Below are positions 37,123-38,867 of a DNA stretch of 38,867 nucleotides, in pieces; the stretch's first letter is position 1; every line of letters begins with the position of its first letter. The notes beneath the pieces are model-generated. The model was not told the DNA's origin. It made no database searches and was given only the letters and a program-made list of their open reading frames with translations. The DNA lies in the NCBI GenBank assembly GCA_944372415.1, contig CALVZA010000004.1:1-38867 (forward strand). Reading direction: 5' to 3'. Origin of the DNA: an uncultured Bacilli bacterium. GTDB taxonomy: Bacteria; Bacillota_I; Bacilli_A; RF39; UBA660. The translations under genes and the position numbers were made by a program.

Positions 37123-37151
37123 ATTATAACAAAGTTATTTTAACTTTTCCA
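37123..37151 (-). promoter_or_regulatory. Promoter of miaB
   Basis: Minus strand TGGAAA (37146-37151), 17-base spacer ending in TGT, TATAAT (37123-37128). It overlaps the last codons of the glycosyltransferase gene. Confidence 0.55.
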
Positions 37152-38262
37152 CTATATTAAATAATTTTTCCATTGATGTTTTTTTATCTATTTTATTTAT
37201 TTTTTTTATCATTTTTTCTAATTCTTTATCGTTATATAATAATTCTTTTAAATGTTTGTTAAAAGATGTTTTACTTTTAGCATTTTTTGCATAACCATGT
37301 CTTACTAAATATATTCTATTTTCTATTTCTTGTCCACCATTATTTTTTATTAATAACATCGGCTTATTAAATAATAAGCATTCTGTTACTTGTGCTCCAC
37401 CTGGTTTTGTTATTACAAAATCACATAAACTATAATATTCGTTTATATTGTTTACAAAACCACATATTTTAATATTTTTACTATTATATTTTTTTACATA
37501 TTCTTTTGCTTTTTTTTCTGCTAATTTATTTTTTCCAGCTATAAATATTATATTACATTTATAATTTTTCTTTAGAATTTCTTTAAAATATACTAAATTT
37601 AATAATGCTCCATTTCCTCCACCCACAAAAAATAATATAGTTTTATTTTTAGGGTTAAATTTATATTTTTTTTGTAAATCTTTTTTATTTATGTTAATTA
37701 ATAAATGGGGCGCTATTGGTATACCTGATGTATAGATTTGTTTGTTTTTTAATCCTTTTTTTAATAGAGATATTTTTTCTTCTAAACTACTTATTATAAT
37801 AGCATCTAATCCTTTTAATGAATTAAGCCAAAATTCGTGAGATTTGAAATCAGTTACTACTGTAATTAGTTTTGAATTAGTTATTCCTTTTTTATTATAT
37901 TCATTTATTAAATCTGCTCCTAAAAAATGTGTTGCAATAGTAATATCAGGGTTAAAGTTTTGTATTTTTTTTCTTAATTTTTTATTATCAAATAATTTTA
38001 TATTTATTTTACCAGATATGTATGCAGTTAATTTATTATCAAAACCAAAATATATTAGTGACCATATGCTAGGTAACTTAGTCATTAAAAATTCAGCACT
38101 TTTTTTACTAACAGTTCCTATTATGGGTACAGAATATGATATTAAATCTATTGTTAAACAAACATATTCTCCGTTTTCTTCAAAGTATTTTTTTATATAT
38201 TCGGCAATTGATTTATGACCGCTACCGTATGTAGCATATGGTATTAGAATTCTTTTTTTCAT
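37135..38262 (-). CDS. MGDG synthase/UgtP-like diacylglycerol glycosyltransferase
   Basis: A 375-residue GT28 (GT-B) enzyme. The N-terminal domain opens with RILIPYATYGSGHKSIAEYI, the diacylglycerol-side glycine loop of the MGDG_synth family, and the C-terminal domain has FFVGGGNGALL near residues 211-221 and the nucleotide-sugar motif TKPGGAQVTECLLFNKPML near 285-303. It should add glucose or galactose from a UDP-sugar to diacylglycerol at the inner membrane face, for glycolipid or lipoteichoic acid anchors. It lies 45 bases downstream of the LexA-box-controlled small ORF, with no terminator between them, so SOS read-through is possible. UgtP of B. subtilis also delays division, which makes the linkage notable. 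Confidence 0.9.
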   Translation of the reverse strand: MKKRILIPYATYGSGHKSIAEYIKKYFEENGEYVCLTIDLISYSVPIIGTVSKKSAEFLMTKLPSIWSLIYFGFDNKLTAYISGKINIKLFDNKKLRKKIQNFNPDITIATHFLGADLINEYNKKGITNSKLITVVTDFKSHEFWLNSLKGLDAIIISSLEEKISLLKKGLKNKQIYTSGIPIAPHLLININKKDLQKKYKFNPKNKTILFFVGGGNGALLNLVYFKEILKKNYKCNIIFIAGKNKLAEKKAKEYVKKYNSKNIKICGFVNNINEYYSLCDFVITKPGGAQVTECLLFNKPMLLIKNNGGQEIENRIYLVRHGYAKNAKSKTSFNKHLKELLYNDKELEKMIKKINKIDKKTSMEKLFNIVEKLK

Positions 38263-38307
38263 TTTTCATCACTAATATAGTTTAGCATATTTTATCTATT
38301 TTATAAA

Positions 38308-38412
38308 CTATGCATTTAAATACTTTAGCCTAAAATATAGACCTATAAAACATAATATTATTGTTAAATAAAATATTATAACCTCCTTATATTCATTTAA
38401 ATACTTTTTCAT
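38308..38412 (-). CDS. 34-residue single-pass membrane protein under a LexA-box promoter
   Basis: A short ORF with an ideal ribosome site (GAAGGAGGAG, 5 bases before the ATG at 38412) and a clear promoter. The product starts MKKYLNEYKE, has one hydrophobic helix at about residues 11-27 (VIIFYLTIILCFIGLYF), then a short basic tail RLKYLNA. I do not recognise a family, which is normal at this size. A LexA-type operator in the promoter suggests induction by DNA damage. Known SOS-induced mini membrane proteins include SidA (division inhibitor), YneA and SosA (division inhibitors) and TisB (membrane-depolarising toxin); any of these roles would fit, by analogy only. Confidence 0.65.
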   Translation of the reverse strand: MKKYLNEYKEVIIFYLTIILCFIGLYFRLKYLNA

Positions 38413-38438
38413 TTTAACTCCTCCTTCTTTATGATTTA

Positions 38439-38467
38439 ATCTTAATACGAATTTTTGTTCGTGTCAA
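38439..38467 (-). promoter_or_regulatory. Promoter of the small membrane protein gene
   Basis: Minus strand TTGACA, a perfect -35 (38462-38467), 17-base spacer, TAAGAT (38439-38444), about 20 bases of leader before the ribosome site and ATG. The spacer is occupied by the LexA box. Confidence 0.75.
38448..38461. promoter_or_regulatory. LexA (SOS) box between -35 and -10
   Basis: Minus strand CGAACAAAAATTCG matches the Gram-positive LexA/DinR consensus CGAAC-N4-GTTCG at 9 of 10 defined positions. Its place in the promoter spacer would let the repressor block RNA polymerase directly. Confidence 0.65.
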
Positions 38468-38516
38468 CAAAAATAAAAACAATTTTGAGTTTCGGTGAAA
38501 AAAATAGTTGATAAGA

Positions 38517-38554
38517 AAAAATCAGAAAATGTTGATAACTTTTTTCTGATTTTT
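38517..38554. terminator. Bidirectional hairpin terminator upstream of the transposase gene
   Basis: A 13-bp stem AAAAATCAGAAAA/TTTTCTGATTTTT with a 12-base loop, reading out into T-rich sequence in both directions. It would isolate the transposase from read-through and shield the leftward promoter. Confidence 0.65.
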
Positions 38555-38646
38555 GATTGAAAAATAAGGTAAAACACTCCAAAGTTTAGTATAATAAAGT
38601 TATATACTAAATTATCATAGTAAACAAAAATATGGAGGTGTCTTAC

Positions 38647-38867
38647 ATGAATAATTTTACTACAAATACCTATGAGTTGAAAAGAGAAATTTGCAATTTT
38701 TCTGAAAAAATTGCAAATGGGACTAGTAAACCAGCCAAAAAGTTTGTTATGGAAACACAATATGGTCTTGCTAAAGGTGGAAGTTGTTTAGTCTCTAACA
38801 TGGCTAGAGCACTAGATGAAGATATAAAATTAAATTATACGATAGATAGATTATGTGATAATTTTGC
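38647..38867 (+). CDS. Transposase, N-terminal part (runs off the window)
   Basis: An open frame with GGAGGTG 6 bases before the ATG continues to the edge (73 codons so far). The N-terminus (NNFTTNTYELKREICNFSEKI, then a small-residue-rich AKGGSCLVSNMARAL and the TIDRLCDN motif) resembles the opening of Firmicutes DDE/IS4-like transposases, recalled rather than searched. The DDE catalytic core would lie beyond the window. Its base composition is visibly richer in G and C than its neighbours, as expected for recently arrived DNA. TATAAT at 38590-38595 is the best -10. The left inverted repeat of the element cannot be identified without the right end. Confidence 0.6.
   Translation, partial: MNNFTTNTYELKREICNFSEKIANGTSKPAKKFVMETQYGLAKGGSCLVSNMARALDEDIKLNYTIDRLCDNF

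Follow-up and report, generated by a model that had tools for sequence, protein, structure and literature searches.

A conserved mini membrane-protein gene paired with lexA in RF39-type bacteria, a probable SOS inhibitor of septation

A number of bacteria carry, linked to lexA, a small single-transmembrane (TM) protein that inhibits division during the SOS response. SosA, YneA, ChiZ and DivS are of this kind, and they share little mutual homology (PMC6851548). SosA of Staphylococcus aureus (77 aa) is encoded divergently from lexA, is controlled by LexA, and has one TM helix and no LysM domain (PMC6851548). According to the literature it is inactive without most of its C-terminal part, a membrane-near outer segment being required. 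YneA of Bacillus subtilis and ChiZ of Mycobacterium tuberculosis are SOS-induced bitopic proteins that target septal wall synthesis; the TM helix of YneA contacts FtsW, and the B. subtilis YneA TM segment without LysM is inactive (PMC13396833). SidA of Caulobacter is an SOS-controlled membrane protein of 29 residues and acts on FtsW (PMC4211646). Short hydrophobic peptides under SOS regulation are also found among toxins, namely TisB and DinQ of E. coli, of which DinQ is reported to be a single-TM toxic peptide (PMC3567139).

We describe here a mini gene of similar layout in an uncultured RF39-type bacterium and its family. A literature search returned no paper on a lexA-linked mini gene in RF39-type bacteria or in the Mollicutes. 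The window, that is, the whole stretch of 38,867 nt that was analysed, contains the following features at and next to this gene.

37135..38262, minus strand: MGDG-synthase/GT28-like glycosyltransferase, the next gene after the mini gene, across a 45-nt gap and possibly co-transcribed.
38308..38412, minus strand: single-helix ORF of 34 aa, MKKYLNEYKEVIIFYLTIILCFIGLYFRLKYLNA, with its ATG at 38412 and its stop ending at 38308 (orthologues, dN/dS, predicted helix).
38418..38426, minus strand: Shine-Dalgarno sequence AAGGAGGAG, its GGAGG kept in all congeners (sequence).
38439..38444, minus strand: -10 hexamer TAAGAT, 17 bp from the -35 hexamer (sequence, promoter scan; layout conserved).
38448..38461, minus strand: LexA-type box CGAACAAAAATTCG, which fills the promoter spacer (sequence, congeners, family-wide).
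38462..38467, minus strand: -35 hexamer TTGACA, abutting the box (promoter scan, family layout).
38473..38484, no strand: 12-bp target-site duplication ATAAAAACAATT, with a second copy beside lexA on contig C19 (L016).
38485..38867, plus strand: IS4-like element, cut off by the contig end, with its left end and the beginning of its transposase (repeat matches at contig ends, element ends, IS4-family transposase in the C48 copy).

The promoter TTGACA-N17-TAAGAT, the ribosome site and the 34-codon ORF that a preliminary description of this DNA had proposed are all present on the minus strand, and their layout is kept in all five genomes of the genus. The LexA palindrome that it had placed inside the promoter spacer does lie within the 17 bp, but it is not an exact consensus site: CGAAC-AAAA-ATTCG has one mismatch to the Gram-positive LexA consensus CGAAC-N4-GTTCG, with ATTCG for GTTCG. 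No exact CGAACNNNNGTTYG site occurs anywhere in the 987-kb genome. The mRNA of the mini gene would start with a leader of ca 25 nt that has an open, strong ribosome site. The GC content of the window is 23.6%, and DNA of this composition often contains hydrophobic ORFs and promoter-like hexamers. Promoter-like sites number 8 against 11.3 expected by shuffling, and a promoter-like site on the plus strand (38406-38435) is likewise within chance expectation. Since the promoter match alone is thus unremarkable in AT-rich DNA, the case for a gene rests on conservation.

Within the genus this conservation is clear. Orthologues of the 34-aa protein are present in all five genomes with 71-88% identity, and the pairwise dN/dS of the ORF is 0.06-0.28, which means that purifying selection acts on the protein sequence and that the gene is real. 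Codons 9-10 (38380-38387, minus strand) contain a ribosome-site-like AAGGAGG that does not differ among the five congeners even at synonymous positions, AAG making up 6% of the Lys codons and GAG 5% of the Glu codons in the window. No start codon follows this internal AAGGAGG, and its conservation was not found outside the genus; it may be a translation pause ahead of the helix or a regulatory site.

We now turn to lexA, which went unnoticed in the preliminary description because an insertion has split the pair across contigs. The mini gene is the divergent neighbour of lexA in each of the four other congeners. In the genome of the window, lexA (NCBIfam lexA equivalog, 218.7 bits) is at the end of the separate contig C19 (L016). 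Both contig ends enter a repeat that encodes an IS4-family transposase, the lexA-side part being L016 1755-1932, and reading across the two ATAAAAACAATT junctions restores the layout of the relatives. An IS4-like element has inserted between the two LexA boxes and separated lexA from the mini gene, leaving the promoters and boxes of both genes intact.

The same arrangement extends over the family. We found lexA in 136 of its 145 genomes, nearly all of different genera, and read 107 of these loci upstream, one genome per genus and in draft assemblies, for ORFs divergent from lexA that have 24-60 residues with one hydrophobic segment and are preceded by a ribosome site. Such an ORF is present at 85 of the 107 loci, counts that share ancestry and are not independent of one another, compared to a mean of 2.6 and a maximum of 7 loci in dinucleotide-shuffled controls and a single locus on the antisense strand. 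At the remaining 22, about a fifth, the position is taken by other genes or a mini ORF is absent. One clear separate event is a rearrangement in G079, where the mini gene is ca 1.1 kb from lexA and has retained its own promoter TTGACA-CGAACGAGTGTTCG. When a profile was searched for with no positional information, the lexA-linked ORF was recovered in 14 of 20 held-out genomes. The same profile gave no convincing copy in the nine genomes that lack lexA, some of which may be incomplete. The gene is thus conserved and paired both with lexA and with a LexA-type box, which is the layout of SidA-, SosA- or YneA-type mini membrane proteins that had been suggested from the window.

The pairing with the box can be followed separately. 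Most loci of the family have two boxes, CAAAC-N4-GTT serving lexA and CGAAC-N4-GTTYG serving the mini gene, the latter mostly 28-40 bp beyond the former and directly after the TTGACA of the mini gene. With at least 8 of the 10 consensus bases demanded, this second box accompanies the ORF at 74 of 83 loci, and among 20 loci that lack the ORF it occurs at 1 (Fisher p = 5e-13). TTGACA abuts the box at 70 of the 85 loci, 65 of which have a 17-bp spacer, and in the window genus TTGACA-CGAAC-N4-ATTCG is kept at the mini-gene promoter of every congener (5/5), so that ORF and box are conserved together at both levels, as the preliminary description had anticipated. The boxes that it expected at lexA and recA exist as well. 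They are degenerate in the genome of the window (CAAACAATTGTTTT at lexA and the weaker AATACATTTGTTCG at recA), with good copies in the relatives, and in nearly all of the family members inspected the recA box has a fixed place just before the -35. From the sequences we infer that the box of the mini gene is a LexA box.

Another intergenic LexA-type box, TAAACATATGTTCG (G000 C41, L209 1186-1199), is located 43 bp upstream of a radical SAM gene of the TIGR03916 type (putative DNA modification/repair radical SAM), which is likely a further SOS gene. Near-matches in C50 (in a deaminase-like gene), C14, C20 and C22 are inside coding sequence and were discarded as chance. The LexA of the window genome is full-length and, judging from its sequence, has the autocleavage serine and lysine. 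Its self-cleavage site is Cys-Gly (LLGKISCGNP) in all five genomes of the genus (L016 1072-1704 on the minus strand, and L020-L023) and Ala-Gly in 22 other genera of the family; UmuD likewise cleaves at Cys-Gly.

What kind of protein does the gene encode? AlphaFold predicts a single helix spanning residues 2-32 with a mean pLDDT of 89. In the window genus, in all five species, the protein ends ca 7 residues past the helix, without the presumably extracytoplasmic tail that its relatives have. Typical family members have 45-50 residues, with a basic start (MKEILKSK...), the helix and a tail of 20-28 residues; they often have an R-x-E-x-LE motif, and the tail often finishes near V-x-N-x. Three more genera (L061, L066 and L131) encode mini proteins of 24-28 residues without a tail in the same place, and the tail seems to have been lost more than once in the family. 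The charge bias of the family, +1.8 before the helix and -0.4 after it, fits an N-in/C-out orientation, while the window protein itself has positive residues on both sides. Searches of Pfam, NCBIfam, PHROGs and the PDB with the mini protein gave no consistent match, in line with the earlier statement that it has no recognisable family.

Two sister families of the class were also compared. One of them (f8) has one box at lexA and lacks a mini ORF. In another (f11), three of six genomes (L192, L194 and L195) have an unrelated-looking, unannotated single-helix ORF of 57 aa between lexA and a YnzC/DUF896-like gene, together with three LexA-type boxes, and this looks like a parallel case.

Compared to the described systems, the mini gene shares with SosA the divergent position next to lexA, the single TM helix, the absence of LysM and, as predicted from its box, the control by LexA; most family relatives also have a C-terminal tail as SosA does. 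However, no homology to SosA is detectable: the NCBIfam model NF041581 does not match the window protein, and the best of 40 relatives gives one weak match (E 0.44). The window protein, with 34 aa, also lacks the C-terminal segment that is essential in SosA. YneA and ChiZ resemble it in being lexA-linked, but the YneA models show no sequence match to the mini proteins, and 24-60 aa leave no room for a LysM domain, of which Pfam finds none in the window protein. In size, TM helix and near absence of a tail, and probably in SOS control, the window protein resembles SidA. The latter is from a different phylum, the available text on it describes no lexA linkage, and homology is hardly decidable at 29-34 aa. 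The window protein has thus a SidA-like build at a YneA/SosA-like position.

We consider it probable that the mini gene, as the divergent partner of lexA, belongs to the SOS genes and that its product delays septation at the level of FtsW. In the mechanism that we propose, LexA would occupy the box between the -35 and -10 hexamers and block the promoter. Upon DNA damage, activated RecA would trigger the self-cleavage of LexA and the mini gene would be induced, its short mRNA with the short leader and strong ribosome site allowing fast translation. The product, presumably a bitopic membrane peptide of 34 residues, would then most likely lodge in the late divisome and slow septal wall synthesis, which would delay septation until repair is finished, by analogy with SidA, SosA and YneA. 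FtsW is the best guess for the target because of the precedents SosA, YneA, ChiZ, DivS and SidA, and FtsW/RodA-family proteins are encoded in the window genus. It should be noted that the tail requirement of SosA and YneA counts against an inhibitor in the case of the almost tail-less window protein. Further points against this reading are the degenerate boxes at lexA and recA of the window genome, the missing match to the SosA and YneA models, and the fifth of lexA loci in the family that have no such ORF. In the window genus, either the helix alone suffices or the activity differs.

A rival reading is a toxin like TisB or DinQ, which the preliminary description had left as an option next to division inhibition. 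The peptide would insert into the membrane and lower the proton-motive force, making damaged cells dormant. The LexA-type promoter and the small hydrophobic single-helix product would suit this role, and DinQ is a precedent for SOS-regulated single-TM toxic peptides (PMC3567139). However, type I toxins are controlled by an antisense RNA together with a structured leader, neither of which was found here: the leader has only the ca 25 nt given above, and an Rfam search of 38200-38867 returned no known RNA family, just a single spurious microRNA match inside the IS. The helix is plainly hydrophobic and has no amphipathic character (hydrophobic moment 0.18 at a mean hydrophobicity of 0.85), and a fixed linkage to lexA, seen in ca 80% of the genera, is typical of division inhibitors and not of toxins. 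We therefore regard a toxin as unlikely; judged on sequence, it is the weaker supported of the two functions.

We have also considered that the peptide could be a feedback or accessory component of the SOS response acting on another membrane target, such as a protease, a transporter or lipid synthesis, e.g. through the adjacent glycosyltransferase. A lipid glycosyltransferase is indeed the next gene in G000 and G001, 36-45 nt away and with no terminator found in between. In the other congeners it does not adjoin the mini gene, which is followed by miaB or others, and those lexA-linked single-TM proteins that have been studied in other bacteria inhibit division, which makes this scenario improbable as well. 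The link to UgtP, which had been drawn from the neighbouring gene as a hint at a division role, is not supported. As a UgtP-like diglucosyl-diacylglycerol synthase the gene scores 182.7 bits against a cut-off of 500. The operon idea was dropped because just two of the five genomes have the two genes side by side, and with such a non-conserved adjacency and a distant model match the neighbour is no evidence for a role in division.

Finally, a chance ORF in this AT-rich DNA that encodes no protein, with the box belonging solely to lexA, is contradicted by the conservation, the dN/dS values and the shuffled controls, as well as by the mini gene's own second box and by G079, where the gene and lexA lie apart, and can practically be dismissed.

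A wider proposal, which we make tentatively and would put at somewhat less than an even chance, is that the mini genes form a so far unnamed family of SOS division inhibitors that evolves fast, is present in most genera and is reduced in the window genus to a bare division-stopping TM helix. If this is true, a TM helix alone would be able to hold the septal wall synthase, unlike in YneA and SosA, where the outer part is needed. The family would provide ca 90 natural versions of such a minimal inhibitor of division, ranging from 24 to 60 residues, both tailed and tail-less, and this set makes the sufficiency of the TM helix towards FtsW testable, a point on which YneA and SosA appear to differ from SidA. 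The septation inhibitor proposed here would supply an uncultured family with reduced genomes with a DNA-damage checkpoint, encoded by a gene that annotation has missed because it is too short.
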